64,000 nucleotides of DNA from Oscillospiraceae bacterium (GTDB lineage: Bacteria; Bacillota; Clostridia; Oscillospirales; Ruminococcaceae), in contig JAFUIS010000005.1 of assembly GCA_017468365.1 (NCBI GenBank), positions 124,001 to 188,000 of the forward strand, given 5' to 3'. Below the pieces are notes generated by a model that was not told where the DNA came from, did no database searches, and worked only from the letters and a program-made list of their open reading frames with translations. The first letter of the stretch is position 1. Each line of letters starts with the position of its first letter. Position numbers and translations under genes: made by a program. This document shows positions 4,032 to 39,139 of the stretch, piece by piece.

Positions 4032-6206
4032 TCAATAAATAAATTTTACAAACCTGTTTTTAAATTTCTGCCAAAAGCTCCATTTCTTTTTGCATTCAGC
4101 AAGAATCTTTTCCGCGTATTCATCAACGGTTTTCCTCTGATCATCAGTTATCGGGTGTTCGCTGAAAAGCGCCTCTTTGTTTATTGCAAAGGCCTCGTCA
4201 TATCCAAGGCTTTTTGCATCGATGTCGGCGCCTTCCGAAAGTTTCTGTGCATATCCAAATCGCATTGCGGCGCCGGTTTTGTTATCGGCGTTATCAATGG
4301 CCGAAAGCGCTTTTTTAAGGCGCTTCCTCATTACAATAACATAAACAATCGCCGCAACAACCGCAAGCACAAACACGCTCACCGAAACCGCAATCAGAAC
4401 TGTATAATTCTTTTTTGCTTCGGTGATATCATCCTTCGGCCTGTCCTGTTCAACGTTCGTTTCCGGAAGCTCGCTCTGCTCATATCGTTTCGAGCTTTCG
4501 CCGTTGGTGCTGAAAGCGGCTTTTTCAAGTTCGTCGTCCATATATCCGGGTGTTACCTCGAAAGGGATCCAGCCCACTCCTTCAAGATAATATTCTGCCC
4601 AGGCGTGCGCATGATTTTCTGTAAGGATTATGGTTTCGCCGGATTCATATTCCGCCGCTTCTTTTGCCGGAAGGAAATATCCTTCGGCGTATCTTGCGGG
4701 AATTCCGAAATATCGGAGCATCAGAGTTGCCGCGGTGGCATAATGGACGGAATATCCCCTTGCGGATTTTTCAAGGAAGAAAGCCGCAAAATCCGTGCCA
4801 CCATTCGACGAAAAATCCTCGTCGTATGTAACGCCTTTTTCGAGATAAATGAGGATTTCGCTGATGATTTCCGTCGCCGTTGCGGCTTTGGAATCTGCAA
4901 AAATTCTGTCTATTGCGTCGTATGCTTCCTCGGTGATTCCTAAGTAATTTGCTTTTACAAATTCGCGGTAAAGCTGTTCGTTTGCAAGGTGCTCATCGAC
5001 CGTTTCATCGGTATCTTGCTTCTCCGAAAGTTCCACCTGTGCCTTGTACCATTCGGAAAGACCGCCGGGAATATAACTTATCTCATAGCTTTTGCCGAAG
5101 GAATCTGTGTTGGCGCCGCCGATTTCAAGATTGTTAAAACCGGCATTTGAAACTGCGTAAGGCAGATACGCTCTTTTTGAGCACGCGGAAAGATTTTTGA
5201 TGCTCATGGCGGAATATTCCTGTTTTCCGGTTGCTTCCAGAGCGGAAGAAACCGCCGACTGACCGAAAAATCCGTTTTGGTGGAGAATATAAAAATCCTC
5301 TGCATATTCCGCAATGTCTTTGTTTGCGATTTCTTCCCAGCCGTAACCGTTATAAACTTCTCCCGCAAAGCCTTTGAGATAGAGTTTCTGCGGCTTTTCC
5401 ATTGTAATTTCAAGCGCAGGAGCATCGTTTTTATCAAAAGCACCGAGATTTTCAAAATCCCCTTCCGGCATTGCGTTGGTTTTGCTGTCAAAAACAACGC
5501 TGTGCGCCGTTTTTTCTGCAAAAGAGCGAACATTTTCGCCGAATCCCGCCGGAACAAAATTTATGAGCACCGCGCAAATCAAAACGCACGCAGCCGGAAC
5601 CTCAAAGACCGAAACCGCGGATTCTGCGGTTGTTTTTCTGCCGAAAAACGGCAGAAAAGCATTGAACACAATTCCCGCAATTCCGAAAAGGAAAAACAAA
5701 AACCAAAAATCCGTGCTCAAAAATCCGATGAGCAAACCGGCCGCGGTCAAAGTTCCCGCAAAGGCCAAAACAACCGGGTTTTTTATCAAAACGCAAATTG
5801 CGACAAGTAAAAATAAAAGCGAACCTGCGGGCAGGTTTTCTCCCGAAACCTCAAATGGAAGATAGATTCTTCCGCTGGCGGCGGTCAGAAATTCAAGCAA
5901 TTCGTTGCCGAGCACAAGAAACCCGTTCCTGAGCACCGGAATAGCAAACACCGCCGCAATACAAATTGCCGAAACGGCAAGCGGCGCAAATCTTCCGATT
6001 TTCTTTCCTGAAAAGAGAACGCAGACCGCCGCCGCGACACCAATCAGAAGTCCGAAAGCGGAGCTTATTCCTACGGAAAACGCTTTTATGAGCATTGCGG
6101 AAAAACCTCCTGCGGCGGCAAAAACCGCAAGAGCTTCCGGCAAAAGTTCCATGGCGTTTTTTTCTTTTTGCAGAATATTTATTTTTATCGAACTTTCTTT
6201 TTTCAT
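4032..6206 (-). CDS. TgpA-like transglutaminase-domain membrane protein (catalytic Cys replaced by Ser)
   Basis: A 724-aa protein. The N-terminus (~residues 25-220) has several hydrophobic segments. An extracellular region follows, with a transglutaminase core (~430-545), then one membrane segment near 620-645 and a cytoplasmic tail. The core keeps the second-motif His (HAHAW, H534) and a WIPFEVTPGY acidic position. The Cys motif, normally GYCVH or GFCEH, reads GYSVHYA: codon TCC at 4749-4751 makes residue 486 Ser. The start at 6206 is used because GGAG lies 7 nt upstream and it follows the DUF58 stop by 1 nt. This family is always paired with DUF58 and MoxR. Last gene of the riboswitch-led operon. 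Confidence 0.88.
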   Translation of the reverse strand: MKKESSIKINILQKEKNAMELLPEALAVFAAAGGFSAMLIKAFSVGISSAFGLLIGVAAAVCVLFSGKKIGRFAPLAVSAICIAAVFAIPVLRNGFLVLGNELLEFLTAASGRIYLPFEVSGENLPAGSLLFLLVAICVLIKNPVVLAFAGTLTAAGLLIGFLSTDFWFLFFLFGIAGIVFNAFLPFFGRKTTAESAVSVFEVPAACVLICAVLINFVPAGFGENVRSFAEKTAHSVVFDSKTNAMPEGDFENLGAFDKNDAPALEITMEKPQKLYLKGFAGEVYNGYGWEEIANKDIAEYAEDFYILHQNGFFGQSAVSSALEATGKQEYSAMSIKNLSACSKRAYLPYAVSNAGFNNLEIGGANTDSFGKSYEISYIPGGLSEWYKAQVELSEKQDTDETVDEHLANEQLYREFVKANYLGITEEAYDAIDRIFADSKAATATEIISEILIYLEKGVTYDEDFSSNGGTDFAAFFLEKSARGYSVHYATAATLMLRYFGIPARYAEGYFLPAKEAAEYESGETIILTENHAHAWAEYYLEGVGWIPFEVTPGYMDDELEKAAFSTNGESSKRYEQSELPETNVEQDRPKDDITEAKKNYTVLIAVSVSVFVLAVVAAIVYVIVMRKRLKKALSAIDNADNKTGAAMRFGYAQKLSEGADIDAKSLGYDEAFAINKEALFSEHPITDDQRKTVDEYAEKILAECKKKWSFWQKFKNRFVKFIY

Positions 6207-6207
6207 A

Positions 6208-7329
6208 TCAAAGCTCCATAAATTCAAGATCTTCTGTATAACTTTCCGCGCCGAACGGAATTATGTTTGCTCCGGCGGCGGATTTACCGCAGATAAGAAG
6301 GCTTGCGCCTTCATTTTCCAAAAGATTTTTCGGCGGCTCTTTTGTGGCGCAGATGATTTTTCCGAAATGTTCAAAAACGCCTTCAAAATCATCTTCCGGT
6401 TTTTCTCCGGCAAACTTTATCATCTTCGGAATCGCTTCAAGAAGGTCTTCCTCGGTCTTTATTTCCGCCGTTTCAATGCGGTCGCGGCTGTTCCAGCCCA
6501 GCAAAAATTCGTATCCGCTTCGAAGAAGGCTTTGGGCAACGGAACAGCTCACCTCCGCCATGGAATCCGTTTCTTTGGGGTTCGCCGGAGCGGTTTTATC
6601 CCAGAAAAGGAGAATATTTTTCGCAATGGGAAGGCTTGGGTCGCGGACTATGGTCCTGTCAAGTTTTTCCGAAAGCTTCCAGTGAATCTGCTTTATGCTG
6701 TCGCCGGGGGCATATTCCCGAATCTGAAAAGTTTCGGAATAATCGTTTCCTTTCTTATCCGGGGCATAGCTTTCGCTGTCTTCCGGAACCGGAAGGACCT
6801 TTCCAAAAACGATTACCGGCGCAAAAGTTTCCGGCAAAACTGTGGTTTTCCCTTTTGCGGAGCTGAAATTTTTAACCGCAACCGGCAGAAAACCGAAAAT
6901 ATCCGTAAGACGGATACGTTCAACTTTTGCGGTCAGGTATCCGCAAAATTCCGAAGAAAGGGCAAATTCCGCTTCGGTTTTGCTTTTCGGCATTGCACGA
7001 AGGCAGATATTTACCGTGTTTTCCTCGCCGGTAAGGTTGTTTTTTACCAAAACTTCGCAGTGCGCTTTAAAAACCGGAAAAGCGGAACCGTTTTCAAGAA
7101 TTATTTTCCCTGCAAAATCCTTTCCTTTTTCCGCAGTGGGCGGCAAAACCGCCTTTGCGGAAATTTTGTTTTTTACCGCAAAGGCTGTTCCAAAACTTGC
7201 CGCCGCAAGAAAAAGAAAAACGAAGAACGCAAAAAGCGCAAAGGCGGAATTCTGCAAAACAAAAACCCCTAGGAGCAGAATTTCTAAAACCGCAAAAAGA
7301 ACCGCGGATTTTATGATTTCTTTTTTCAT
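6208..7329 (-). CDS. DUF58 domain protein, partner of MoxR
   Basis: A 373-aa protein with two N-terminal membrane segments (~residues 8-55), a beta-rich part, then the DUF58 core with its hallmark YAPGDSIKQIHWKLSEKLDRT (~residues 190-210). A von Willebrand-A-like fold follows; its metal site is incomplete, as is common in the family. DUF58 proteins are thought to be the substrate-binding partners of MoxR AAA+ ATPases. The 4-nt overlap with the moxR stop and 1-nt gap to the transglutaminase gene indicate coupled translation. Confidence 0.9.
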   Translation of the reverse strand: MKKEIIKSAVLFAVLEILLLGVFVLQNSAFALFAFFVFLFLAAASFGTAFAVKNKISAKAVLPPTAEKGKDFAGKIILENGSAFPVFKAHCEVLVKNNLTGEENTVNICLRAMPKSKTEAEFALSSEFCGYLTAKVERIRLTDIFGFLPVAVKNFSSAKGKTTVLPETFAPVIVFGKVLPVPEDSESYAPDKKGNDYSETFQIREYAPGDSIKQIHWKLSEKLDRTIVRDPSLPIAKNILLFWDKTAPANPKETDSMAEVSCSVAQSLLRSGYEFLLGWNSRDRIETAEIKTEEDLLEAIPKMIKFAGEKPEDDFEGVFEHFGKIICATKEPPKNLLENEGASLLICGKSAAGANIIPFGAESYTEDLEFMEL

Positions 7330-8273
7330 TTTATTTTAAACTCCGTGATTTCCGGCTTGGTTACCTTTTTGGTGATTTCCGAAAGAATTTCTTCCGCGGA
7401 AAGTTCGTGAAGTCTTGCCTTCGCCTCAAGCAGAATTCTGTGCGCGCAAACGTCGCCAAAAACCGCTTCCACGTCATCGGGAATTACGTAATCCCTGCCC
7501 TCAAGGAAGGCAAAAGCCTTTGCCGCGCGGCAAAGCGCAAGTGCGCCTCTGGGGCTGATTCCAAGCTGGATATATGCGTTATGGCGGGTTTCCTCAACAA
7601 GTTCCGAAGCATAGGCATAAACGCTGTCCGCAACAAAAACGTTCTGCGCTTCGGCAATAAGACTGTTGAGGGTCTTTATATCCGTCACCGGGACAACTTT
7701 ATCAAGGGGATTTTCGTGGTGGCGGTCCTTCATAATTTCAATCTGGCTTTTAAGGTCAGGATAGCCCATGCTTGTCCTGATGAGAAAACGGTCAAGCTGG
7801 GAGGAAGGAAGCATCTGGGTTCCGGCAGAACCGGCGGTGTTCTGCGTTGCAAGAACGATGAAAGGCTCCGGAAGCTTATGGGTAACTCCGTCAACGGTAA
7901 CTCTCCGTTCCTCCATTGCTTCAAGAAGCGCGGACTGGGTCTTGCTGGAAGTTCGGTTGATTTCATCCGCAAGAAGAAGGTTAGTCATAACCGCGCCGGG
8001 TTTATAGCTGAGTTTTCCCTGCTCCCTTTCATAAACAGAAAAACCGATTATATCCGAAGGCATGGTATCGGAAGTGAACTGCACCCTTTTGTTTTCAAGC
8101 CCGAGAACTTTTGAAAAAGCCATGGCCATGGTGGTTTTTCCAACGCCCGGAACGTCTTCCATAAGAACGTGGCCCTGGGCAAGAACCGCCATAAGCACCT
8201 TTTTTATAACGTCATCTTTTCCGATGATGACCTTTTTTATTTCGCTTTGAATTTTTTCAGCAAGTTCGTTCAT
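7326..8273 (-). CDS. MoxR-family AAA+ ATPase
   Basis: A 315-aa AAA+ ATPase of the MoxR subfamily. Walker A is VPGVGKTT (residues ~41-48), Walker B LLLADEINR (~107-115), with a sensor-like ATQN motif and the C-terminal lid domain with ISPRGALAL. MoxR ATPases act as chaperone-like motors that mature or insert partner enzymes or surface complexes. The gene starts only 15 nt after the toroid lipoprotein gene, with no terminator between, so it appears to belong to the cobalamin-riboswitch transcript, an unusual regulation for a MoxR cluster. Confidence 0.93.
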   Translation of the reverse strand: MNELAEKIQSEIKKVIIGKDDVIKKVLMAVLAQGHVLMEDVPGVGKTTMAMAFSKVLGLENKRVQFTSDTMPSDIIGFSVYEREQGKLSYKPGAVMTNLLLADEINRTSSKTQSALLEAMEERRVTVDGVTHKLPEPFIVLATQNTAGSAGTQMLPSSQLDRFLIRTSMGYPDLKSQIEIMKDRHHENPLDKVVPVTDIKTLNSLIAEAQNVFVADSVYAYASELVEETRHNAYIQLGISPRGALALCRAAKAFAFLEGRDYVIPDDVEAVFGDVCAHRILLEAKARLHELSAEEILSEITKKVTKPEITEFKIK

Positions 8274-8288
8274 TTATCTATCCTCCGG

Positions 8289-9308
8289 TCAGTCAGTAAA
8301 AATAAAAGCGCCGCTTTTTCCGTTTTCAAAATTGATAAGCGCCATAAGCGCCATCATAGCCTGGTCCGTTGCAAGGGCGTCGCCTTTTTCAGAATCGAGA
8401 GTATGGGAAAAAGTTTTGTCCTTCTGGCGGAAATCGAAAAGCGCATCATAAACGGAAGTTCCGTGTTTGATAAACCTTTCGTCCGTTTTAGGTTCGATTC
8501 CGTTTGCGCAAAGGGCGATTATAACCTGGCTTATGCTTTCGGAAGTTTTTGAATCCATTCCGGAAAAGCTTCCGTCGCCGTTTTGTGCCGAAGAAAGAAA
8601 AGCAATTCCCTCGTCGATAACCTTTTTGATTTCCGGGTCATCGGAATAGGGCGCAAGGGCATGGAGCGCCATTGCGGTCATATCAACGTCGGAACGCTCG
8701 CCGAAACCGAAGGAACCGTCCTCGTGCTGTTCTGCGATAAGTGATTCAATTATGCTTTCTCTGGTATATCTGCTTCCTTCGGGAATTTCATAATTTCCGC
8801 AATCCAAAGCGAGAAGGGCATAGATAAATCCGTTTATGCCCTGGTTCGCGAGGTCTTCGTTTATGTAATTATAAATTCCGTCAGCCACAAGGTTAATCTT
8901 CGTTCCGTCCGGGTAAGTTCCGAAAGCGGTTGCGTCGCCGCCTAACGCGGTTACAACAAGAATGGTTCTGTGCCATTCGGTGGCCTTTGTGGAATCAAGC
9001 CCGCCTTTTGCGGCATATTCTTCGGTAACTTTCTGTTCAAGTTCGGAAAGATAGCTTTCAAAATCATCCTCGATTCCGAATTCTTTATAGGCTATTGCTG
9101 TCCAGTCGCAGATCGCCGTTCCTGCGCCGAAACCGGGATTTCCGGTCAGGAGATTTTTGTTTTCCTTTACGCCGAAAAGGTTTTTCTGACCGATGGCGGT
9201 GTTCACCGCAATATCAAGGGTGGTTTCTTCCGGTTTTTCGGCATTGCAGCCGGAAAACAAAATTAAAAAAGCAAGAACAAACGCAAATATTTTATGAATT
9301 TTCTTCAT
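8289..9308 (-). CDS. Lipoprotein with terpenoid-cyclase/prenyltransferase-like alpha/alpha toroid
   Basis: The ATG at 9308 gives a textbook lipoprotein signal: MKKIHK, a hydrophobic stretch and lipobox LFSGC with Cys21. The frame is open upstream, but that part is antisense-like to the neighbouring gene. The mature part (~318 aa) has helical-repeat signatures of the alpha6/alpha6 toroid: DGSFGFGERSDVDMTAMAL and NGDGSFSGMDSKTSESIS, as in squalene cyclases, prenyltransferase beta subunits and the alpha-domain of transcobalamin/intrinsic factor. No cyclase DXDD motif is seen. It overlaps the DUF4430 gene by 17 nt. I infer a corrinoid-binding role from the riboswitch and neighbours. Confidence 0.82.
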   Translation of the reverse strand: MKKIHKIFAFVLAFLILFSGCNAEKPEETTLDIAVNTAIGQKNLFGVKENKNLLTGNPGFGAGTAICDWTAIAYKEFGIEDDFESYLSELEQKVTEEYAAKGGLDSTKATEWHRTILVVTALGGDATAFGTYPDGTKINLVADGIYNYINEDLANQGINGFIYALLALDCGNYEIPEGSRYTRESIIESLIAEQHEDGSFGFGERSDVDMTAMALHALAPYSDDPEIKKVIDEGIAFLSSAQNGDGSFSGMDSKTSESISQVIIALCANGIEPKTDERFIKHGTSVYDALFDFRQKDKTFSHTLDSEKGDALATDQAMMALMALINFENGKSGAFIFTD

Positions 9309-11064
9309 CTTCTTCGCTTCCTTCCTCAAAATCTTCTTCATCGCCGGCGCCGGTTGCCGGAAGAACTTCTTCATACCAATCGCCGCATTCACATTCATAA
9401 ATAACGTATCCGTCCTCGGTTTCGGTGGGTTCAACGCGGTCAACCTCGTAATATTCATGTTCGTGTTCTTCCGGTTCTTCGGGAATAATTTCCTCGGTAT
9501 AATGCTTTTCGCAGATGGCACATTCATATTCGATATAATCGGTTCCCCGGTCGATTTCAACGTATTCATGTTCAAGTTCGTAATATCCGCCGTCGCTCCA
9601 GATTCCGCAGTAACCGGCAAGATTTCCGTTTCCGCCGCCGCTGCCGCCGATATCCTTTCCTTCCGCAACGGTATAGCGAAGATAAATGGTATCCCCGTCC
9701 GAAAGGTTATAGGCGGAAAGTCCTTTTCCCGGATAGAGCGTTCCGTTTATGGAATACATCCAGCCGGAGTTTGCGGTGAAATCTCCCGAAAAAAGTCCGC
9801 CGGAAGGAGCACCGGTAAGGGAAAGTCCGTCCCGAAGAATACATTCCCAAAGTTCCGCCGGAACTTCCGGAACGCCGCCGAATCCGCTTACTCCCCGGAC
9901 GTAAAATCCGCTTTCGGTATTGCCGTCGTAATGGATCGAAAGACCCATAAAATCCGCCGCGGAAACAAGGCTTTTTGCAGCTGTATCGCCCTGCAGAATC
10001 TCAACTTCATATTCGCCGATGATTCCAAGACCGGCGGCGGTGGCGTCAATTACCACATATGCAACGCCGATGGAATCACCGTCTTTGCTGCCCTTGAACT
10101 TAACTTCGTATTCCCGGTAGGCGGAGTTTCCTTCGTCGTCCCAGGCAAGAACCGTCACAAGGTGGGTATCTTCCGGTCCGAAGTTGAGAACGTATTCAAA
10201 AGTTGAAGAACCGGTGGGCGAATCCACGGTAGTTCCGTCAAGGGTGACTTCGATATGGTCGGAATATATGACCTTTCCGCTGCTTCTTGCGGAAACAGTG
10301 AAGGTGAAATAGCGGTTTGTCATAACCTCGTCATACCCGTCGAGGTTTGTTACTATCGAAATCCCTTCTCCGACATTGGGATTCGAAGCATCCGCCTTTG
10401 CCGCCTGATAGGTGATTATATACTGGACGGATGAAACGGTTTTTCCGTCCTCTTCGAGGTAAATGGTAAAATAGTTTGCCCCAAGGGCAAGCTTTGCTTC
10501 GTAATAATCATCGGCGGTTTCAAGGTTTTCGCCGGAAAATGAAGTTTCGGAATTTTTGAAGTTTATGGTAAGCGAATGTTTTTCGCTTCCGTTTTCGATA
10601 TAGGCGAAAAACTCGAACATATCTCCGGAAAGTTCGGAGGAGGTCACGATTTTGTTTTCCAGATCGGTAACAACTGTAACTTCGCCGGGTTCACCTTCGC
10701 CGGAAACATCTCCCTCGCCGCTTCCGGCGGTATCTCCTCCGCTTTCTTCGGTAACTTTATCGATATTTGGCTGGTTGGTTTCGCTTTGTTCTTCCTTCGG
10801 CATTTCCGGAATACTTTCCGGAATTTCCGTGCTCATATTTTCCTTCGGCGGGTCATCTTCGCTTTCTCCGTCCGTTTCTACATTGTTCGGAAGGAAGTTT
10901 TCGCCTTTTGAACCGAAGATAACGTCTGGAAGAAGTTCTTCCGCTTCGTTAAGCGTCATTTCCGGCGAGGCAACTGCCGCAGAAGAAATTGTTATAACTA
11001 TGCCGATGAGCACGGCAAAAATTATCGCCGTGCTCAATATTTTGGTTAAATTCTTTTTGAGCAT
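9292..11064 (-). CDS. Secreted DUF4430 (transcobalamin-like) surface protein
   Basis: A 590-aa exported protein. A signal peptide (residues 1-33) is followed by an acidic linker rich in Pro, Ser and Glu (~40-130), two beta-sandwich domains (~130-325) and a DUF4430 domain (~335-467) with the typical SGWMYSINGTLYPGKGLSAY and LSDGDTIYLRYT motifs. Two related C-terminal units follow, each a short strand pair with closely spaced cysteines (C515/C518 and C558/C560). The end carries LPATG (568-572) followed only by an acidic tail, without the hydrophobic segment of a working sortase signal. DUF4430 resembles the beta-domain of transcobalamins. Second gene under the cobalamin riboswitch, 18 nt after the first. 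Confidence 0.85.
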   Translation of the reverse strand: MLKKNLTKILSTAIIFAVLIGIVITISSAAVASPEMTLNEAEELLPDVIFGSKGENFLPNNVETDGESEDDPPKENMSTEIPESIPEMPKEEQSETNQPNIDKVTEESGGDTAGSGEGDVSGEGEPGEVTVVTDLENKIVTSSELSGDMFEFFAYIENGSEKHSLTINFKNSETSFSGENLETADDYYEAKLALGANYFTIYLEEDGKTVSSVQYIITYQAAKADASNPNVGEGISIVTNLDGYDEVMTNRYFTFTVSARSSGKVIYSDHIEVTLDGTTVDSPTGSSTFEYVLNFGPEDTHLVTVLAWDDEGNSAYREYEVKFKGSKDGDSIGVAYVVIDATAAGLGIIGEYEVEILQGDTAAKSLVSAADFMGLSIHYDGNTESGFYVRGVSGFGGVPEVPAELWECILRDGLSLTGAPSGGLFSGDFTANSGWMYSINGTLYPGKGLSAYNLSDGDTIYLRYTVAEGKDIGGSGGGNGNLAGYCGIWSDGGYYELEHEYVEIDRGTDYIEYECAICEKHYTEEIIPEEPEEHEHEYYEVDRVEPTETEDGYVIYECECGDWYEEVLPATGAGDEEDFEEGSEEDEENS

Positions 11065-11082
11065 GATAAGCTCCTTCGTTTT

Positions 11083-14000
11083 TTAAAAAATCGGTGCGCC
11101 GGTATTGGGGTTCACCTCTTCTGCATCGGAAAGCGCAGAATCTGCGTCAGCGGGTCTTGCGGTGGTGATGCGGTATGCTCCGAGGGTGGTGCCGCCTTCA
11201 TTTTCAAAGGTGAGAACGATATCTTCGTTTATATCGTCCTTCATATAGTCAACTGTGAACTCATCAAAATATTTTCCGTCCTTGGTGACGTAATAGGTGA
11301 TGATATCCTCTTCCTCGACCTTCGTCTTAAAGCTTTCGCGAAGTTCATAAGCGTTTACGCCAAGTTTCCATTCAATGGAAAAATCGCTTTGTATCGGCTG
11401 TTTTCCGAAGAAGGTAAGGCTGTAAACTGTAGTCTTTTTGTCGGAATCAAGTTCACCGACGGTGTTTTTATAAATAAAGTTTACACCGCGCTGCATAGAA
11501 CTGATTTCGGGAATGGTGATTTCAACGCCTTCGCCGCAGGCAAGGGTCATTTTCTTTCCGGCAACCGCTCTGAATGCGGTGGTAGAAACAACGGTGGGTT
11601 TTTCCCAAAGGGGCGGTGCATAATCCGGTTTTCCGTAGCCGTATTTATAGCTGAGATAATCGGAATAGCCTCTTGCTTCATCGCTCATAACTTCGACTTC
11701 GTCGTTTGCGGTCGCCCATTTAAGATATTCATATTCAAAAATCGCAACGTCGGTAACAACGGTGTATTCCGCGCTGGTATATTTCACCTTGTCTCTTTCA
11801 GCGGTGATTTTATAAGTGCCGGATTTATATGCGGTGCTGTAATTTTCCGGAACGGTTATCTTTGCAACGTAAACGAACTGTTCACATTCCACCGCATAAT
11901 AAGTCACCTTGTTTTCATCGTTGAGATGTTCGGCAAGTTTCTTTGCCTTATCATAGGTCATTCCTTCCGCCTTGTTGTCCGGACGGATTCCCGCTCCGGA
12001 AGAAAGAACGTTTTCAACGGTCTCGCCGGTAAGCTTGTTATAAACGCGATAAGTTTCGCCGATGCTGCGGTATTTTTCCGGGTCGAAATCCACAAGCTGA
12101 CCTTTAAGGTAACCGGTGGTGTGAACGTCAAGGTTTTCAAATTCCTCTTCATCGATGATTCCGACGTAGAAAACGCCGCCTTCGGGTTTGTCAGCAAAAT
12201 AAACCTCGGGGGTATCAACGGTGTTGTCGAGTTTTATGGTGTCTTTAAGAGTGATCTTGGTCTTGGTGGGCTCTTTTACGGGAAGAAGTTTAAGGCTTCC
12301 GTCGCTGATGTTAAGTTCGATGGTATCGAAAGGTTTTTTGTCGCCGCCGACGTTTTCAAAGACGATCTTGAATTTTGCGTCCTCTTCGGCAAGAGGTTCG
12401 GTGGACCAGGTTACATATTTTGTGATGTCGCGCTCGGTGCCGTTATAGTAATACGCGGTAACTTCCATTCCGGTGGGATCGAAAACTTCGCCGGGTTTAT
12501 AGTTCATCTTATCCGGGTTCTTGGTGACTTCGATATATTCAACGGCGGAGCCCACCGCAAAGAGGTTTGCGCTGTCGTTTTTGAAATAAAGAGTGCCGTC
12601 ATTATCAATAATCGGGGTACATATGCAGTATTGGGCAAGTTTTCCGGTGGGTTCAAAAACGCTGTAGCCAACTTCATAGGTTTTTCCGTTGGTGGTTTCT
12701 TCGATGGTTTTAAGCGGTTCGGTCATTCCGGGTTTATCCGCAAGAACGCGGAGCTTTCCGGGAGTATAGTTATCGAAGAAATAGACGTAAACGTAACCGT
12801 CGGTCTTTTCGTAATAGGTTGTAAGGGTTCCGGTGGTCTGGGGATAGCCCTGGGTCGGAACGGAATATGCAATGCTCCAGGAAGGAATATCGATTACAGT
12901 GATATTGTGTCCGGAATATGCGGAAAACTGGCCTTTTCCGGAAACGCCGATATATGCTCTTCCGTTATAAACGGTAGGGGTGCTGGTGCTCATGGGAACG
13001 CCGTTGCTTCCGTTCTGGAGTTCGATGAAGCGGAGATTTCCGATATCGCCGGTTTTGGGGTTATATTCCGCTTCGTAAAAATATCCGCCTTTGGAAGTGA
13101 AATAAAGCTTTCCGCCGGTCTGGTTGATGCTGCTTCTGATATCACCGACGTTCGGCATCGTGACGTCGTCAACGACTTTACCGGTGTGTTTGTCGATGGA
13201 AAGAAGATGCGCAAATCCTGTCTGGTAACCGTCTTCGCCGTCATCGGTTCCGATATAGAGGTAATCACCTTCGATATATGCGCCCGCCCAATAGAAACCG
13301 CCTTTCTGGATATGGCGCCATGTTGCGATTTTTGCTTCATCAGTATCAGTGGGGTCTTCATCTGTGATGGAAAGTGCTACGTAAGCCGCTTCGCCGTCTT
13401 CGGAATTCCAGAATCCGGTATAGACGTAGCCGTCGCTGTAAGTAATCTGGGCGTTGGGCTGACCTTTAAGCGGGTCGCAGTAGAGCCATACGGATTCAAG
13501 GGTTTCGGCATTGAACGCCTGAACGGTGCCGTTATTGAGTCCGACGAAGATAAGTCCTTCCGCATAGGTAAGAGAGCAGATTGCGTAGGCGGAAGAACCG
13601 CCGGTCATTTTTCCGGTCTGGATTATTTCGCCGCTTATCTTATCGATTTTCATAATGGTTTTGCCGGCGTAACAATAAAGATAATCGTCAACAAGAATCG
13701 GAACGCCCGTTGCGCCGTAATCGTAACCTGTTCCGATTTTGTTTGCCCAATAAAGAGCTGTTTCTTCTTTTACGGTAGGAGTGGGGCGGTCGATTACCAT
13801 GTTGTTATTGTTGTTAAGTCCAAAGAAAGGCCAGCTGGAATCGTATTCTTTAAAAGAGGTCGCCGGCGCTTTTTCAAGGTTCACCATAACAAGAGCATCG
13901 CCGGCGGGAACATATTCCGCGGTTTTGCCGATATATCCGAAAGCGGTTACGTTATAGGTATAGGTTTCGCCTTCAAGAAGTTCAAATTCTCCGTTTTCAT

Positions 14001-15858
14001 TTGCGGGAACGCCTTGCTTAAATTTATCGCTGATATAAACAAGGGCATTTTTCGGGTTTACGCTGAAAGTGATTTTTGCTTTTGCAAGTTTTGTTATTTT
14101 AAGGTTATATGTTTTTTCAAAACCTTCCGCATTCTTTACGGTAACGGCGATTATGTTTTCGCCTTCGGAAAGAGCAACAACGTTGTTTTCGCTTCCGTTA
14201 TAAGTAACGGTATAGCTTTCGTCATAGGGAACGCCGGTTACGGCGATTTTTTCTTCACCGGTTGAAGCGGTATATTCGGTGGTGCTGACTGCAAATTTTT
14301 CGTTGAAGGAAATTGCGTTTCCGTTTAAATCCGCGGCGGAAAGTCCGGTAAGACTCGGGGTTCTTTTAAGTTCAATGGTATAGGTCTGAATATCGCCTTC
14401 AACACCGACTTCAATAGTTACGGTGTTTCCGACCGTGCCTTTGTTGAGCGCCCTGGTCAGCAAAACGCCTTTTGCGTTGCCGGGTTTTACGTTTATTACC
14501 TGTTCGGTGCCTTTGGTTTCAATGAATTTTGCGGTGATGGTCGAACCTTCCGGTGTGTCGCCGGAAAGCTTTGCCTTGATGAAAATTCTGTTGACGTTGT
14601 CCTGAACTTTTACGTCATATCCAAAAATTTTGTTGCCCAGTTCCGGGCTCATTTCAAAAAATTCGCCGGTTGCAGTTTCGGAAAAACTGAGTTCGGAAAG
14701 ATAGAGCGCAAGTTCGGTTACCGTTACCTGACATTCTGCGGAAACGTCGCCGATTTTTGCGGTGACGGTCGCTTCGCCCTTTGAAACCGCGGTAACAACG
14801 CCTTCGGCAGAAACGGTCGCAACGGTTTCATCGGAAGAAGACCAGATTATTTCGGAAGCTTTTTCTTCCGGAACAACGGCTGCGGCAATTTCCGCGGTCT
14901 TTCCTTCGGTTATTGAAAGGGCGGTTTTATCGAGGGAAAGGGTGATTTCGGGTTCTGCTTCCTCCGCAATAACTTTCATATACGCAGGGCTGGATGCATA
15001 AGAACTGGATTCTCCGGGCTGACCGTCCGCCCAGATATACCAGGTTCCGGCTTCGGAAAGTTCAAGAACCGCGCTGCCGTTTGTTGTTCCGGCGGTTTTA
15101 TAATCGCTTCCGTAAAGTTCCTTTCCGTAATAAACGGTTGTTCCGTCCGAAGCGGGAACATTGCTGTAAGTTGCTTTTCCGTTTCCGTCGGAATAATCCC
15201 AATACTGGCTTATTCTTTTAAGATTTGCGGTATAACTGCCAACAGAAGCTTTGTCTTCAAAAATCACGTTTTCTTCCGAATCGAAGAAATAGTTGAATCC
15301 GTGAAGAGAATCCCAAAGGAAATAATAATCCGTGTAATGGCTGAGGCAGATAAAATCGCCGTTTTTAAGAACGATATGGTCCGCTGTTGCAACGGTTTCA
15401 TAGTTTCCTAAGGAAAAGCTTGCATCCATATATTCTTTTCCGTTGATCCAATATTTAAGGTTATTGTCCTCAAATCCCATAAGTCCGCTTGCAAAATAAA
15501 TGCTTCCGGAAGCACCGGTTATAAAAACTTCGCTCCAGTTTCTTCCGAAAATCTTTTCGTGCGCATAAATAAAAAGATGGAGCATGGTTGTTTCATAATT
15601 TCCGTCATAGTCGCTGTCAAAAACGAAATCGGTGAGTCCGTACATAGCAAGGTCTATTTTTTCAAGTTCCGAAAGCGGAACAGGAATATGTGCCGCAACG
15701 GAGCCTTCCGCGGTTTCGATGAATTTTTCGTCATGGCTTACAGAAAGATAAACGTATTCTTCTGTTTCTCCGTCCGCCATTGCCGTTACCGGGAACATTC
15801 CCACTGTCATTATCACAGCAAGGAAAAACGATAACGCCTTCTTAAAAATGTTTTTCAT
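11083..15858 (-). CDS. Giant secreted beta-propeller/Ig-like surface protein, first gene of the cobalamin-riboswitch operon
   Basis: Of two in-frame starts, 15858 has GGAGGAG just upstream and opens with a signal peptide (residues 1-29, ...VTAMA), giving 1591 aa. In order: a DUF4430-like N-terminal domain (~35-175; KYWINGKEY, LKNGDFICL); a further beta domain to ~295; a Big_2 bacterial Ig domain (~303-382); cadherin-like beta-sandwich repeats (~385-590); a PEGA-like unit (~595-662); a PQQ-type beta-propeller (~675-1110; repeats such as GDYLYIGTDDG and YIGVSGKGQF); and further Ig-like domains. It ends NPNTGAPIF, a sortase-like motif with no membrane tail. A propeller plus DUF4430 behind a B12 riboswitch recalls BtuG-type surface corrinoid binders, by analogy only. 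Confidence 0.85.
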   Translation of the reverse strand: MKNIFKKALSFFLAVIMTVGMFPVTAMADGETEEYVYLSVSHDEKFIETAEGSVAAHIPVPLSELEKIDLAMYGLTDFVFDSDYDGNYETTMLHLFIYAHEKIFGRNWSEVFITGASGSIYFASGLMGFEDNNLKYWINGKEYMDASFSLGNYETVATADHIVLKNGDFICLSHYTDYYFLWDSLHGFNYFFDSEENVIFEDKASVGSYTANLKRISQYWDYSDGNGKATYSNVPASDGTTVYYGKELYGSDYKTAGTTNGSAVLELSEAGTWYIWADGQPGESSSYASSPAYMKVIAEEAEPEITLSLDKTALSITEGKTAEIAAAVVPEEKASEIIWSSSDETVATVSAEGVVTAVSKGEATVTAKIGDVSAECQVTVTELALYLSELSFSETATGEFFEMSPELGNKIFGYDVKVQDNVNRIFIKAKLSGDTPEGSTITAKFIETKGTEQVINVKPGNAKGVLLTRALNKGTVGNTVTIEVGVEGDIQTYTIELKRTPSLTGLSAADLNGNAISFNEKFAVSTTEYTASTGEEKIAVTGVPYDESYTVTYNGSENNVVALSEGENIIAVTVKNAEGFEKTYNLKITKLAKAKITFSVNPKNALVYISDKFKQGVPANENGEFELLEGETYTYNVTAFGYIGKTAEYVPAGDALVMVNLEKAPATSFKEYDSSWPFFGLNNNNNMVIDRPTPTVKEETALYWANKIGTGYDYGATGVPILVDDYLYCYAGKTIMKIDKISGEIIQTGKMTGGSSAYAICSLTYAEGLIFVGLNNGTVQAFNAETLESVWLYCDPLKGQPNAQITYSDGYVYTGFWNSEDGEAAYVALSITDEDPTDTDEAKIATWRHIQKGGFYWAGAYIEGDYLYIGTDDGEDGYQTGFAHLLSIDKHTGKVVDDVTMPNVGDIRSSINQTGGKLYFTSKGGYFYEAEYNPKTGDIGNLRFIELQNGSNGVPMSTSTPTVYNGRAYIGVSGKGQFSAYSGHNITVIDIPSWSIAYSVPTQGYPQTTGTLTTYYEKTDGYVYVYFFDNYTPGKLRVLADKPGMTEPLKTIEETTNGKTYEVGYSVFEPTGKLAQYCICTPIIDNDGTLYFKNDSANLFAVGSAVEYIEVTKNPDKMNYKPGEVFDPTGMEVTAYYYNGTERDITKYVTWSTEPLAEEDAKFKIVFENVGGDKKPFDTIELNISDGSLKLLPVKEPTKTKITLKDTIKLDNTVDTPEVYFADKPEGGVFYVGIIDEEEFENLDVHTTGYLKGQLVDFDPEKYRSIGETYRVYNKLTGETVENVLSSGAGIRPDNKAEGMTYDKAKKLAEHLNDENKVTYYAVECEQFVYVAKITVPENYSTAYKSGTYKITAERDKVKYTSAEYTVVTDVAIFEYEYLKWATANDEVEVMSDEARGYSDYLSYKYGYGKPDYAPPLWEKPTVVSTTAFRAVAGKKMTLACGEGVEITIPEISSMQRGVNFIYKNTVGELDSDKKTTVYSLTFFGKQPIQSDFSIEWKLGVNAYELRESFKTKVEEEDIITYYVTKDGKYFDEFTVDYMKDDINEDIVLTFENEGGTTLGAYRITTARPADADSALSDAEEVNPNTGAPIF

Positions 15859-15878
15859 ATCTTCTCCTCCTTTTTTGC

Positions 15879-15917
15879 AAAAAAAGAAGCCGCCGAAGAT
15901 AAAAAACCTTCGGCGGC
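15879..15917 (-). terminator. Riboswitch expression-platform terminator
   Basis: On the minus strand, a 10-bp perfect stem GCCGCCGAAG (15917-15908) / CTTCGGCGGC (15898-15889) is followed by TTCTTTTTTT. It lies between the cobalamin aptamer and the RBS of the surface-protein gene, so it reads as the transcriptional OFF element when ligand is bound. Confidence 0.85.
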
Positions 15918-15977
15918 CGAATTTTTCCGCAGTCTTTGCTTTTTCGGGTGTAAACGCACCGCAAAAAAACTTTCCAC

Positions 15978-16184
15978 GCATTGTCGACATTCTGGCTCGC
16001 GCATTTGGGAAAAAATTTGTTTTCCTGCGTTTTTTGTTCTACCTTCTCGGTTTCCCAATGGCCGGTTCGCACCGCGAACAAAAAACTCCTGCGCATACAG
16101 CAACGGTTACTGCTCCGGACTCTCACCGGATTTCCTAATTCCGGCGCCTGCAAAAATTGCAGCCATAACGCCGGAACACAATGC
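15978..16184 (-). promoter_or_regulatory. Cobalamin riboswitch (AdoCbl/B12 aptamer)
   Basis: Read on the minus strand, the conserved B12-box region TCCGGTGAGAGTCCGG is followed by GCAGTAACCGTTGCTGTA (the place of the usual GCGGTCCCGCCACTGTA), then CCATTGGGAAACCGAGAAGG (usual CCACTGGGAA..GGGAAGG), and finally GAGCCAGAAT near the 3' side. The closing P1 helix is visible: GCATTGT (16184-16178) pairs with ACAATGC (15984-15978). A terminator follows 60 nt downstream. Riboswitches of this class repress B12 uptake or synthesis genes when B12 is plentiful. The subclass (adenosyl- or aquo-) is not determined. Confidence 0.92.
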
Positions 16185-16257: not shown

Positions 16258-16291
16258 AGGACATGTCCTTTCTTGTTAAAAATTGTATAAT
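16258..16291 (+). promoter_or_regulatory. Promoter with palindromic operator for the AraC-type regulator
   Basis: A -10 hexamer TATAAT lies at 16286-16291. The -35 region is replaced by a perfect 12-bp palindrome AGGACATGTCCT (16258-16269), placed where a repressor or activator dimer would sit. Autoregulation by the downstream AraC protein is possible but not shown. Confidence 0.5.
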
Positions 16292-16336
16292 GGCAGTATT
16301 GAGAAAAATCCACACTCTTCGGAGGATTATATAATA

Positions 16337-17128
16337 ATGAACTATATAGAAGTAATGGAAAAATGCGAAAAATATATCGGGGAACATCTTGAATATCCGC
16401 CCACGGCAAAGGAACTTGCGGAATTTTCGGGATATTCTCTCTATCATTTCTGCCACCTTTTCCGGGCGCATTTCGGAATTTCCGTCGGGGAATACATTTC
16501 CCGCAAAAAGCTTGAAAAGGCGGCGGAAAACATTGCCGCCGGAATGAGCATAACGGAAACAGCCCTTCGGGCAGGTTACGATACTCCTTCCGGTTTTGCG
16601 AAGGCTTTCCGAAAAAATTTCGGAACAAACGCTTCGGAATACCGCAGAAACATTCTGAAAGAAGATGAAAAAATGACCATTATCGAAAAAGATGCTTTTT
16701 CCGCCATCGGTTACTGCATAATTCCGCCGGAAGAAATCAAAAGCGAAGAATACGGCGCATACTGGAAGAAAATCGATTTCACCAAATATCCCGCATACCC
16801 GGAAAACCTTGAGGACTTCGGCGAAGTTGCCGCCTGGATACATCCGACCGAAAACAACGGAGAACTCAGTTATTTCTTCGGTTTTGAAACAAATTGCGAA
16901 ACCGTTCCGGAAGGTTTTTTCTCAATTACAGTCCCGAAAGCGGAATACGCGGTTTTTGACGCGGAAGTTTCCGTTTTTGACGAAAAACTTTCCGAAGAAC
17001 TTAACCGGCTTTGGAAGCATATTTTTGACGAATGGTTCCCCGTTTCCGGAAAGAAATTTGACGAGGAAAAAATGTGCTTTGAGTTTTACAAAGGCGAAAA
17101 AGCCTATATCTATGTTCCGATAAAATAA
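16337..17128 (+). CDS. AraC-family regulator with GyrI-like small-molecule-binding domain
   Basis: A 263-aa protein from the ATG at 16337 (GGAGG 11 nt upstream). The AraC/XylS double helix-turn-helix is at the N-terminus (residues ~8-105: AKELAEFSGYSLYHFCHLFRAHFG and ITETALRAGYDTPSGFAKAF). A GyrI-like/effector-binding domain follows (~112-263), the Rob/SoxS-BltR-like layout that senses small hydrophobic or drug-like ligands. It is transcribed away from the riboswitch operon, sharing a 150-bp intergenic region. Its target is unknown; the nearby palindrome and the divergent operon are candidates. Confidence 0.9.
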   Translation: MNYIEVMEKCEKYIGEHLEYPPTAKELAEFSGYSLYHFCHLFRAHFGISVGEYISRKKLEKAAENIAAGMSITETALRAGYDTPSGFAKAFRKNFGTNASEYRRNILKEDEKMTIIEKDAFSAIGYCIIPPEEIKSEEYGAYWKKIDFTKYPAYPENLEDFGEVAAWIHPTENNGELSYFFGFETNCETVPEGFFSITVPKAEYAVFDAEVSVFDEKLSEELNRLWKHIFDEWFPVSGKKFDEEKMCFEFYKGEKAYIYVPIK

Positions 17129-27436: not shown

Positions 27437-27624
27437 TTCCTGTGGTGTCGCTTATCAAAAACACATACCCTACACCACCCGAAAACGCTGAAAATTGGCA
27501 TTTTACAAAAATCCGAAAGCTTGTTTTGCCAAGGCAACCCAAGGCATCACAAACAAATAAGCCACCTGGCCAGCAAAAGCTTTCCAAGTGGCTTATTCTG
27601 TAATTTTTCACTTTACGTGAAACT
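27437..27624. repeat. 188-bp dispersed repeat, right copy
   Basis: Same length and orientation as 17225-17412, ~90% identical. Its hairpin (from 27556) has lost a few pairs compared with the left copy. The recombinase stop codon and its last three codons lie inside it, so the repeat supplies the end of that gene. Confidence 0.85.
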
Positions 27625-29127
27625 GAGTGGTGGAACCCTTTCCGAGATGGATGAACACTCGTCAAAATCGCAATTTTCCACATTAAATGCCGCTTCAATC
27701 TCATCAAGAGGAATGTTTTCTATGCTTAGTGGTTTCTTGCTTGCGTTGACAATCAGAGTAAAATATCCGTCGTAAAGATAAATAGAGTGGACGAATATAT
27801 TTATAATCGCTCTGCGTTTTTTGAAATCATTAAGGGGCATTTCGCAGATATAATCAAGAAAAGCCAGGATCTGTGCTTCCGATAAATATATTTTCTTGTT
27901 GTTTTCAGCGGCAAGCTGAGCTTCCAATTCTGTTTTCTCTGCCTGACGTTTATGCAGACGTTCCGTCAGCATTTCAACCGCCTGTCCCTGTTCTATTCCC
28001 TTCCAGAGATTCTCGATGGCGGCATCAGTTTCCTTGATTGCTTTTTTGATTTCGCGAATTGATGTATTGTCTTCGCTCTTGTTGCATTCCTCCTCAATCT
28101 TCTTTGCTATATACCGGATTTTCTCATCCGTAAGCATTTTGAGGCATTCTTTGATAACGCGGTCTTCAAGATATTCTTTGCCGATAATATCTTTATCACA
28201 TTGTTTTCTTCGGGCTTTCTTGCACATATAGTAATGATATACTCTTCCCGATTTGCTCGTTCCGCCGTATCCAACCATCATTTCTTTGCAGTGTCCGCAA
28301 AATAGTTTTGTGGTCAGAAGATATTCGTTTTCTCCTCTTGTACGAGCAGGCACAGATTTGTTTTTATTAAGAATATCCTGTACTTTATAGAACAAATCAT
28401 CGTCCACTATTCTCGGCATACCTCCGGGAGTTTCGGTATCTTTGTAAAGATAAATCCCGATATAGCGTTTGTTTTTAAGAAGATGGCTGAGGCTGTTATA
28501 TGTAAATATTTTCCCTTGGGAAGTTTTTACTTTTCTCCTCTGTAAATCTTCTACTATTTCCGCCTTTGTCTCTCCTCTTGCGTAACGCTCAAATATTTCG
28601 CGGACAATCTTTGCCCCTTCTTCATCGACAGAAAAGGTTCTGTCTTTATTGACTATAAAGCCAAGTCCGGGATTACTTCCGTTGGATAAACATTTCTCGG
28701 CATTGATCAGCATGCCCCTGTGGATTTTCTGCGCAAGTTCTGCAGAATAATATTCTGCCATACTTTCAAGAACGCCTTCAATCAGAATACCGGAAGCGTC
28801 ATCGGTAATATTTTCTCTTGCCGAAAGAACACGGACACCGTTTTTCTTTAGTTTCGCTTTATAGATTGCGCTGTCATAACGGTTACGGGCAAAGCGGTCA
28901 AGCTGATAAACAAGTACACCCTGAAAAGTATGTTTTTCACTGTCTAAAATCATCTTTTGAAAGTCCGTACGGGTATCAAACTTTCCGCTCTGAGCACGAT
29001 CTATATATTCCCCGACAACCGTATATCCCATCCTTTCAGCGTAGGCATAACATTCTTTTAGCTGACCTTCTATCGACTGTTCCGTTTGGCTGTGGCTCGA
29101 AAATCTGGCATAAATTACAACATTCAT
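27613..29127 (-). CDS. Large serine recombinase (site-specific integrase/transposase type)
   Basis: A 504-aa protein. The N-terminal resolvase domain has the catalytic pattern YARFSS (R8, Ser10), YQLDRFARNRYD and the following E-helix. A 'Recombinase' domain (~160-265; TYNSLSHLLKNKRYIGIYLY), a zinc-ribbon domain (C-GHC ... MCKKARRKQC, ~275-315) and a coiled-coil (~375-420) complete the usual layout and length. Such enzymes insert and excise elements at short att sites without high-energy cofactors. The RBS GGAGG precedes the ATG. The last residues fall in the 188-bp repeat. Its own element boundaries are not resolved. Confidence 0.95.
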   Translation of the reverse strand: MNVVIYARFSSHSQTEQSIEGQLKECYAYAERMGYTVVGEYIDRAQSGKFDTRTDFQKMILDSEKHTFQGVLVYQLDRFARNRYDSAIYKAKLKKNGVRVLSARENITDDASGILIEGVLESMAEYYSAELAQKIHRGMLINAEKCLSNGSNPGLGFIVNKDRTFSVDEEGAKIVREIFERYARGETKAEIVEDLQRRKVKTSQGKIFTYNSLSHLLKNKRYIGIYLYKDTETPGGMPRIVDDDLFYKVQDILNKNKSVPARTRGENEYLLTTKLFCGHCKEMMVGYGGTSKSGRVYHYYMCKKARRKQCDKDIIGKEYLEDRVIKECLKMLTDEKIRYIAKKIEEECNKSEDNTSIREIKKAIKETDAAIENLWKGIEQGQAVEMLTERLHKRQAEKTELEAQLAAENNKKIYLSEAQILAFLDYICEMPLNDFKKRRAIINIFVHSIYLYDGYFTLIVNASKKPLSIENIPLDEIEAAFNVENCDFDECSSISERVPPLSFT

Positions 29128-29216
29128 ATATTTGACCTCCTTTTTTATACCTGGTAATATTTTACTGAAAGTTTTTTCTTTTGGCGAATGTACGGAGTTT
29201 TATTTTGATGGCATAT

Positions 29217-29260
29217 AAAAAAGAAACCCTTTGTTCATCTGAACATAGGGTTTCTTTTTT
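29217..29260. terminator. Bidirectional terminator
   Basis: The 14-bp perfect stem AAAAAAGAAACCCT (29217-29230) / AGGGTTTCTTTTTT (29247-29260) has a nested GTTCATCTGAAC hairpin. It ends the metabolic operon on the minus strand just upstream of the recombinase promoter region. Confidence 0.9.
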
Positions 29261-29267
29261 ATGAGAG

Positions 29268-30065
29268 TTACATTATCGAAATTATACCTTCCATAGCCGC
29301 CGCAAATTCCAATGGCAAATCATATGCACAGTTGTGCTTTCCGGCGATGCGGATAAAAGGCAACGCGGAGTTTTCCGCAAGCATCTGCGTGGTTTTATAG
29401 ATAAAATCTTCTCTATGGGCGTCGCCGGCACAGAAAACCGATTTAACTTTTTTCGGAATTTCCGGAGAAAGCTCCTTTGTAAAAGTTTCCGCAAATTCAT
29501 GTTCGATAAAAAACCGCATATTTTCCTCTTCCCGGAGCATCGCTTCTTCGGATTTCGGCTTTGCGTTTTCATCGCCGTTATCCATGAGAAGGAGGAATTT
29601 TGTTGCTCCTCTGCCGATTTTTCCCGCCGCAACAAAAGCGTTTATCTTATCCGCAATTTCAAAAGCTTCGTGGTTTTCCGGAAGAAAAGCCATGGTCGGC
29701 GGTTCGTGGATTATCGCAAGGGAAACAAGTTCCGGAAATTTGCTTGCAAGGCACATTGCGATAAGCGCGCCGGCGCTGCAGCCGATAGCCGTCACCGGTT
29801 CTTCCGGCGAAAATCTGTGGATAATTTCCGCCGCATCATCCGCGGAATCTTCAAGAAAGCCGTTTTTGATTTCTCCGGAACTTCTGGAATAACCCCGGCG
29901 GTCATAGGTTATGACTTTATGATTATTTGCGAGGATTTCCGCAGTTTCGTCAAAGAAATCCGAATCCACTGCCGCTCCGTGAATAAGCAAAATCGGCTTT
30001 CCTTCTCCGCGGATTTTGCAGAAAAGCGGCGCGCCGTTTATTTCAAAAATTCCTTCGGAATACAT
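29268..30065 (-). CDS. Alpha/beta hydrolase
   Basis: 265 aa from the ATG at 30065, chosen for its GGAGGGA RBS; an in-frame upstream ATG has none. Canonical fold marks: HGAAVDSDFF (oxyanion loop), DRRGYSRSS, nucleophile elbow GCSAGA, and a C-terminal His in GKHNCAYDLP; the Asp is probably in CAGDAHRED. No signal peptide, so cytosolic. It may hydrolyse an ester or act on an acyl-thioester of the neighbouring locus. Last gene of the metabolic run, 82 nt after the small membrane protein. Confidence 0.87.
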   Translation of the reverse strand: MYSEGIFEINGAPLFCKIRGEGKPILLIHGAAVDSDFFDETAEILANNHKVITYDRRGYSRSSGEIKNGFLEDSADDAAEIIHRFSPEEPVTAIGCSAGALIAMCLASKFPELVSLAIIHEPPTMAFLPENHEAFEIADKINAFVAAGKIGRGATKFLLLMDNGDENAKPKSEEAMLREEENMRFFIEHEFAETFTKELSPEIPKKVKSVFCAGDAHREDFIYKTTQMLAENSALPFIRIAGKHNCAYDLPLEFAAAMEGIISIM

Positions 30066-30147
30066 AAAAATCCCTCCATAGCACTGACGGACAGCCCCGA
30101 AAAGAGCTGTCCGCAGCATTTTATTGCAGAAAAGAAGTGAGAAGTTT

Positions 30148-30351: not shown

Positions 30352-30366
30352 ATTGTGTCCTCCTTT

Positions 30367-31590: not shown

Positions 31591-31593
31591 GGC

Positions 31594-32694: not shown

Positions 32695-32695
32695 C

Positions 32696-33694: not shown

Positions 33695-33707
33695 TTTGTT
33701 TTCCTCC

Positions 33708-34091: not shown

Positions 34092-34118
34092 CTTTTCACC
34101 TCGTTTTTTGGGTGCAAA

Positions 34119-34152: not shown

Positions 34153-34230
34153 CTCGTTGGGGATTATTATGTTTTGTCTGAGCACCGCACAGCGGTCCGC
34201 GCCGTGCTCAAACCTTTTTATGCTGATTTA

Positions 34231-39134: not shown

Positions 39135-39139
39135 GTATA

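Follow-up and report, generated by a model that had tools for sequence, protein, structure and literature searches.

A 64,000-nucleotide stretch of the genome of an Oscillospiraceae bacterium (assembly GCA_017468365.1, contig JAFUIS010000005.1, positions 124,001 to 188,000; hereafter the window) contains a cobalamin riboswitch followed by six genes, which encode an exported propeller protein, a DUF4430 protein, an alpha/alpha-toroid protein with a lipobox, a MoxR-type ATPase, a DUF58-type protein and a TgpA-like membrane protein (genes 1 to 6, Table 1). We consider it likely that this operon is a B12-repressed surface system, in which a split transcobalamin-like pair, the toroid and the DUF4430 protein, captures corrinoids and passes them to a CbrT-type energy-coupling factor (ECF) importer encoded elsewhere in the genome.

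Linkage to B12 riboswitches and ECF importer genes

A survey of genomes for these genes behind B12 riboswitches, proposed in a first-pass annotation of the window, was carried out on 117 genomes of the order; above 40 genomes the search filters were stricter, and weak riboswitches were lost. The cobalamin riboswitch family RF00174 was found in 71 genomes (112 matches) and the DUF4430 family PF14478 in 82 (118 matches). For 44 of the 112 riboswitches, in 40 genomes, a DUF4430 match lay no more than 6.5 kb downstream on the same strand, and 49 of the 118 DUF4430 matches were so preceded by a riboswitch. With about 0.14 pairs expected by chance (a rough estimate for 2.2-Mb genomes) and a single pair on the wrong side or strand, chance was rejected as the cause of this adjacency. 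Toroid genes (55 matches in 43 genomes) lay within 4 kb of a DUF4430 match on the same strand in 37 cases and on the opposite strand in none, and 23 of the 55 had a riboswitch within 6.5 kb upstream, with none on the wrong side. A riboswitch also lay within 3.6 kb upstream of 14 of 26 propeller matches. In locus L027 (genome G068), three B12 riboswitches are packed into 1.6 kb (7399-8969), one of them divergent from the other two, and similar three-riboswitch clusters occur in G102 and G088. At L093, a TwoAYGGAY RNA (5455-5967, minus strand) adjoins a B12 riboswitch on the same strand.

The recurrent order in the mapped loci was riboswitch, toroid-DUF4430 protein, EcfT, EcfAA and EcfS. The toroid and DUF4430 are on separate genes in the window, and are joined on one chain in twelve open reading frames (ORFs) of these relatives. 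Nine of the one-chain ORFs were aligned (L017, L018, L019, L024, L025, L026, L029, L031 and L040), showing a signal-like N-terminus, the toroid, a linker, two hydrophobic stretches and DUF4430; all nine match PF14478 and toroid families, and all nine precede ECF genes. A riboswitch above the cut-off stands before six of them (L018, L019, L024, L025, L026 and L040, which is G322), L017 has a sub-threshold one (28.5 bits), and none was seen in the Rfam scan at L029 and L031. In L014, L015, L028, L038 and L042, the toroid and DUF4430 are separate genes that likewise precede ECF genes.

The source assembly (1.86 Mb in 33 contigs, with an estimated completeness of 97.8%) has four RF00174 matches. 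The best of these (98.7 bits, locus L008) is followed by DUF2752, a DUF4430 lipoprotein, EcfT, a double EcfA and an S component. The only significant Protein Data Bank (PDB) match of this S component was 6fnp (E 1.3e-7), under which the crystal structure of ECF-CbrT, a B12 importer, is reported (PMC5997447). A profile of ten S components from the riboswitch/ECF loci matched 6fnp at 7.2e-20, and the next match was a riboflavin protein at 0.003. The first-pass annotation had stated that the operon holds no BtuFCD or ECF gene, which is true for the window; it missed the ECF set elsewhere in the source genome and the ECF genes that lie in the same arrays in relatives. CobA-type adenosyltransferase genes stand directly before two of the four riboswitches. 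CbiD was not found in the source genome, and de novo corrin synthesis is therefore improbable. One of its proteins scored above the PF02310 cut-off.

The operon and its regulatory RNA

The six genes are tightly spaced on the minus strand, as first annotated, with successive gaps of 18, -17, 15, -4 and 1 nt. The cobalamin aptamer and terminator that had been read at the head of the operon were both recovered: in the proposed covariance-model scan, the aptamer exceeded the gathering score of RF00174, and it was the only Rfam match to do so within the window. The adjoining terminator, which lies between the aptamer and gene 1, is probably the expression platform of the riboswitch. The segment 15872-15935 has a fold energy of -32.6 kcal/mol (z -6.1 relative to shuffles). 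The terminator scan also returned further, weaker terminator-like sites (34 vs 21 in shuffles), and the second-strongest on the minus strand, 6133-6107, is within gene 6 and not intergenic.

Table 1. Features of the riboswitch operon, in window coordinates.
Feature	Position	Strand	Remarks
Cobalamin riboswitch aptamer, RF00174	15965-16196	-	44.2 bits vs gathering score 31.5, E 7.9e-8
Intrinsic terminator between aptamer and gene 1	15918-15888 (stem)	-	T-rich tail
Gene 1, exported 1591-aa protein	11083-15858	-	N domain, Big_2, Cadherin-like, PQQ-type propeller, C-terminal part ending NPNTGAPIF
Propeller domain of gene 1, aa 671-1105	12544-13848	-	BamB/YxaL-like
Gene 2, exported or membrane-tethered DUF4430 protein, 590 aa	9292-11064	-	N-terminal hydrophobic segment
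Gene 3, alpha/alpha-toroid protein with lipobox	8289-9308	-	Start read from ORF
Gene 4, MoxR-type AAA+ ATPase	7326-8273	-	AAA_3 183.7 bits, AAA_lid_2 92.1 bits
Gene 5, DUF58-type protein, hydrophobic N-terminus	6208-7329	-	
Gene 6, TgpA-like membrane protein, transglutaminase-like domain	4032-6206	-	Seven hydrophobic segments
Serine 486 codon of gene 6, column of cysteine in ordinary relatives	4749-4751	-	

Toroid, DUF4430 and propeller proteins

Residues 426-465 of the gene 2 protein matched DUF4430 (PF14478) with 29.8 bits (cut-off 23.8), and HHalign comparison with the DUF4430 domains of the riboswitch and ECF loci gave 99.7%. InterPro lists DUF4430 under the name transcobalamin-like. The gene 3 protein has a lipobox, read from the sequence as LFSGC, and a Prenyltrans toroid match of 28.8 bits (cut-off 26.5). 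Vertebrate transcobalamins are described as having DUF4430 as their C-terminal domain (PMC4350170), and, with the one-chain relatives beside CbrT-type ECF genes, mostly behind B12 riboswitches, this lends support by context to the earlier proposal of corrinoid scavenging by a toroid and a beta-domain on separate proteins. The gene 2 protein ends in LPATG and an acidic tail without a membrane segment (9295-9363, minus strand), an ending that is common in close homologs and lost in more distant ones. The source genome encodes a second toroid protein (G000:C12:148774-149586; L056 8625-9617), which is 37% identical and has no recognised DUF4430 or ECF gene nearby.

The gene 1 protein has a signal-like N-terminus and Pfam matches to Big_2, Big-like, PQQ_2 and Cadherin-like. 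Its structure model suggests that the propeller is probably eight-bladed; the best matches were YxaL, BamB and an eight-bladed designer protein, and BtuG was not among the listed rows. BtuG2 is reported to be seven-bladed (PMC6143338). The likeness to BtuG suggested in the first-pass annotation is thus unsupported, and the propeller is described here as BamB/YxaL-like. The DUF4430-like domain first annotated in this protein is tentative: it has no Pfam match, and HHalign gave the N domain only 62% probability against DUF4430 domains (0.2% against the DUF4430 domain of gene 2). The N domain does match a dockerin protein that follows another B12 riboswitch of the source genome (E 6e-16, 28% identity); next in that locus is a Big_2 protein whose C-terminus consists of NPNTG, a hydrophobic segment and basic residues. 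A protein search at E up to 0.001 gave 2375 relatives of the propeller protein; those listed bear dockerin, SLH, Ig-like or fibronectin-type modules, so that a single propeller has several modes of surface attachment.

Gene 1 itself ends in NPNTG without a membrane tail (11086-11112, minus strand), a conserved tail-less sorting-like ending. All 21 sequences in a comparison of gene 1 with its 20 closest listed homologs (P0241-P0261) stop a few residues past NPNTG (once NPETG). No tail was found in the three frames behind the stop, and loss of a tail by frameshift was rejected. Because the homologs end alike and no tail lies behind the stop, we regard the ending as real. In contrast, L010:9578-13528, behind another riboswitch of the source genome, has a hydrophobic segment and basic residues after NPNTG.

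A MoxR-DUF58-TgpA module without the cysteine

The MoxR protein (gene 4) has Walker A and Walker B stretches in its sequence. The gene 5 protein scored 21.9 bits against DUF58 (PF01882), slightly below the cut-off of 23.4, and gene 6 scored 71.3 bits against Transglut_core (cut-off 23). The closest named relatives of gene 6, at 88-90% identity, are in Oscillospiraceae metagenome-assembled genomes from water deer, goat and sheep guts (L074-L078).

The same three genes recur in the arrays described above. The 23 genomes with a propeller contained 13 DUF58 matches in 10 genomes, and in seven of the 10 (G000, G434, G360, G373, G334, G392 and G311) DUF58 lay within 12 kb of the propeller on the same strand. 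G318 and G453 have EcfT-EcfAA-EcfS-DUF4430-DUF4430-toroid-MoxR-DUF58-TgpA on one strand; in G318 a 388-residue ORF on the opposite strand (L062 2508-3674, minus strand), an insertion-sequence transposase by reading, parts MoxR from DUF58, and the array is intact in G453. The order DUF4430-toroid-MoxR-DUF58-TgpA-propeller is found in G434, behind a sub-threshold riboswitch (28.5 bits), and in G360, where the array stands four genes further on behind a clear one (60.3 bits).

A pattern scan of genome contigs with four TgpAs yielded 65 loci, in 24 of which the module is linked to toroid (22 loci), DUF4430 (21), propeller (15) or ECF genes (EcfAA in seven). Three of the 24 had been mapped before (L082 is G360, L083 is G434 and L098 is G373). 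The linked loci span Oscillospiraceae, Lachnospiraceae, Eubacteriaceae and Clostridiaceae to Kurthia senegalensis. Kurthia senegalensis JC8E and Hominisplanchenecus faecis are examples of carriers that are in culture. The complete genome of Clostridium cadaveris (L088) has the six genes of the window in the same order, followed by DUF4430-EcfT-EcfAA-EcfS, with no riboswitch seen by Rfam in the locus. In Kurthia (L099), a 106-bit riboswitch is followed by DUF4430-toroid-DUF4430-EcfT-EcfAA-MoxR-DUF58-TgpA, and a second, of 112 bits, precedes another toroid. Of the 24 linked loci, 16 were scanned with Rfam; the arrays of L077, L079, L080 and L084 likewise have a riboswitch at their head.

The linked TgpA proteins differ from ordinary ones at the column of serine 486 of gene 6, which reads GYSVHYATA where ordinary relatives mostly have GYCxxFA or GYCxxYA, with a cysteine that is presumably catalytic in the transglutaminase fold. 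Gene 6 keeps the histidine of HAWAE. The cysteine is missing from all 25 TgpA ORFs of the 24 linked loci (mostly serine, also asparagine, aspartate and alanine) but present in 37 of the 39 unlinked loci, which lack toroid, DUF4430 and propeller. Outside the 65-locus survey, linked copies in G334 (aspartate), G318 and G453 (both serine) also lack it, and the unlinked copies G403:C10, G373:C43 and G392:C17 have it; within G373, the linked TgpA has serine and the other copy cysteine. Because the linked TgpAs form nearly one clade in a tree of 50 of 67 rows, from which short rows were dropped, a single ancestral event is the simplest reading, and the sequences suggest that the cysteine was probably lost once. 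Since serine replaces the cysteine of ordinary relatives, the transglutaminase chemistry that the first-pass annotation had invoked for anchoring is unsupported.

Neighboring genes

An AraC-type regulator with a GyrI-like/Cass2 domain (16283-17128, plus strand) is divergent from the riboswitch, and a short ORF behind another B12 riboswitch of the source genome (L009 4951-5690) is AraC-like by reading only. Further along the window, 27613-42528 (minus strand) encodes a site-specific recombinase, a ParB-type protein, a relaxase and an actin-like protein, and is probably an integrated mobile element.

Proposed mechanism and alternatives

From the anatomy of the operon and its relatives we infer the ligand, the binding mode, the hand-over and the role of MoxR, DUF58 and TgpA, as follows. 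When corrinoid is ample, the aptamer would favor the terminator and silence all six genes; when B12 is scarce, the terminator would not form and the six proteins would be made. The toroid lipoprotein and the DUF4430 protein may then clasp a corrinoid on the outer side of the membrane, in the manner of the two transcobalamin domains, and would hand it on to the CbrT-type S component of L008. Probably, the propeller protein enlarges the area for capture or keeps the two capture proteins in the wall. MoxR, DUF58 and the cysteine-less TgpA are likely to assemble the capture complex or to drive release of a tightly held corrinoid, and not to act by covalent cross-linking.

The proposed pair resembles transcobalamin and intrinsic factor in joining a toroid to a domain of the DUF4430 family. 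It differs from them in being two proteins in the window (the single chain of relatives has a hydrophobic hairpin), in that its toroid lies outside the eukaryotic cobalamin-binding family by sequence, and in being tied to an importer and a riboswitch, with cobalamin binding putative. Similarly, the S components of the riboswitch loci match 6fnp and are encoded with EcfT and a double EcfA, as in ECF-CbrT, but capture proteins precede the ECF genes in relatives, and for the window the ECF set is at another locus (L008); CbrT is described as itself the substrate-binding component of ECF-CbrT (PMC5997447). By analogy, the nearest functional parallels are BtuG and BtuH of gut Bacteroidetes, described as surface proteins in B12-riboswitch loci that are proposed to capture B12 (PMC6143338, PMC8941943). 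BtuG is likewise a propeller, but these proteins have other domains, and the seven-bladed BtuG2 serves the outer-membrane BtuB, in contrast to the BamB/YxaL-like propeller of the window.

Several observations weigh against this reading. The operon of the window has no ECF gene, and the source genome has one Peripla_BP_2 lipoprotein with no assigned substrate, so that a BtuF-type route is possible. In the survey, 68 of the 112 riboswitches and 69 of the 118 DUF4430 matches were unpaired, and 12 of the 26 propeller matches had no riboswitch within 3.6 kb. Among the linked TgpA loci, no riboswitch above the gathering score was found in L081, L083, L085, L087, L088, L089, L090, L092, L094 and L097, several of which are cut by the 10-kb flank (the sub-threshold riboswitch of L083 lies outside it, at L072). 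The toroid and propeller are on the opposite strand in L093, and in G392 the MoxR and DUF58 genes near the propeller have no TgpA match beside them. The structure model of the gene 3 protein (pLDDT, the predicted local distance difference test score, 94.7; built without the first 6 residues) confirmed an alpha/alpha toroid, and the proposed comparison did place transcobalamin among the Foldseek matches, but terpene cyclases ranked higher. The fold is common to terpene cyclases and epimerases, both scoring above transcobalamin; by its modeled fold gene 3 is a generic alpha/alpha toroid, and because of the higher rank of terpene cyclases the fold alone proves no analogy to transcobalamin. The window toroid had no match to PF01122, the eukaryotic cobalamin-binding family, at E up to 10, and 4 of 67 toroid homologs matched it weakly (best E 0.0055). 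PDB profile searches with gene 2 and with 16 DUF4430 domains found no transcobalamin, and an NCBIfam search gave nothing informative.

The loss of the cysteine also has exceptions. A B12-linked TgpA outside the survey (L053, genome G311) keeps it, and the unlinked archaeal copies L127 and L128 are nevertheless without it. Serine is also found in L075 and L076, fragmentary contigs from close relatives with no visible linkage; they were counted as unlinked in the Fisher test (37 of 41 with cysteine) and with the linked rows in the tree. One of the two TgpAs of L094 also has arginine at the histidine column, and the long-branched, cysteine-bearing L106 falls inside the linked clade. As the loss was probably one event, the Fisher contrast between linked and unlinked copies is not independent evidence.

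An alternative that in our view falls only a little short of an even chance is that MoxR-DUF58-TgpA is an envelope-assembly module on a shared transcript, which matures or places surface proteins and takes no part in moving corrinoid. Sets of these three genes in the same order are known from other bacteria, and in 39 of the 65 loci TgpA stands away from toroid, DUF4430 and propeller (with MoxR in 33 and DUF58 in 26); genes 1 and 2, moreover, encode exported proteins requiring placement. However, the linked loci differ from those sets in having serine, asparagine, aspartate or alanine for the cysteine and in their close linkage to B12 genes. The linked TgpAs, nearly one clade with its own cysteine loss, stay with toroid and DUF4430 and, in seven loci, with ECF genes, an association superfluous for a general module, although this argument leaves room for assembly of this one complex.

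Animals digest their B12 carrier to free the tightly bound B12, and a tight bacterial binder would also need help in letting go. The force could conceivably come from MoxR together with DUF58 and the cysteine-less TgpA, and we find this role about as plausible as one in assembly. The specific proposal of ATP-driven B12 unloading, in which cytoplasmic MoxR would act through DUF58 and a dead transglutaminase-like membrane protein to pry open a bacterial transcobalamin and deliver B12 to the CbrT-type ECF importer, is speculative and on balance unlikely. If true, the machine would be the counterpart, in a cell with one membrane, of TonB in its action on BtuB, and bacteria would have the architecture of the animal B12 carriers in the form of an uptake receptor.

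Import of a different nutrient, such as haem, cobalt or a corrinoid precursor like cobinamide, by a system that B12 merely co-regulates is improbable. The ligand is putative, and cobinamide is reported to be a further substrate of the two known families of B12 importer (PMC6593275), but this suggestion runs counter to the occurrence of DUF4430 in vertebrate transcobalamins (PMC4350170). It also runs counter to the S-component profile, whose only strong PDB match was the B12 importer ECF-CbrT. B12 riboswitches can also control B12-independent isoenzymes, and in both sequence and fold the toroid matches terpene cyclases best, but that the toroid is a terpene-cyclase/hydrolase-type enzyme, and the operon a B12-repressed substitute for a B12-dependent reaction instead of an uptake system, is very hard to reconcile with its lipobox, its place with DUF4430 and CbrT-type ECF genes, and the nine relatives in which it forms one membrane chain with DUF4430.

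Biological significance

Our literature search, which covered open-licence papers, with preprints and most subscription papers outside its scope, returned no description of a DUF4430-toroid-ECF system. A 2019 survey of genomes from the human gut is reported to have found known B12 importers in nearly half of B12-auxotroph variants, and it counts identifying the B12 transport systems of numerous gut genomes as an open problem (PMC6593275). As a concrete candidate to fill part of this gap, the gene set can be recognised in many families from DUF4430, toroid and CbrT-type ECF genes that follow B12 riboswitches. Because some relatives keep the same genes beside genes resembling ECF-CbrT, we predict that it is an overlooked route by which B12-requiring bacteria obtain B12. 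Such a route would place the two-domain architecture of human B12 carriers in bacteria, add a surface capture protein to ECF importers, and assign a function to the cysteine-less MoxR-DUF58-TgpA module.

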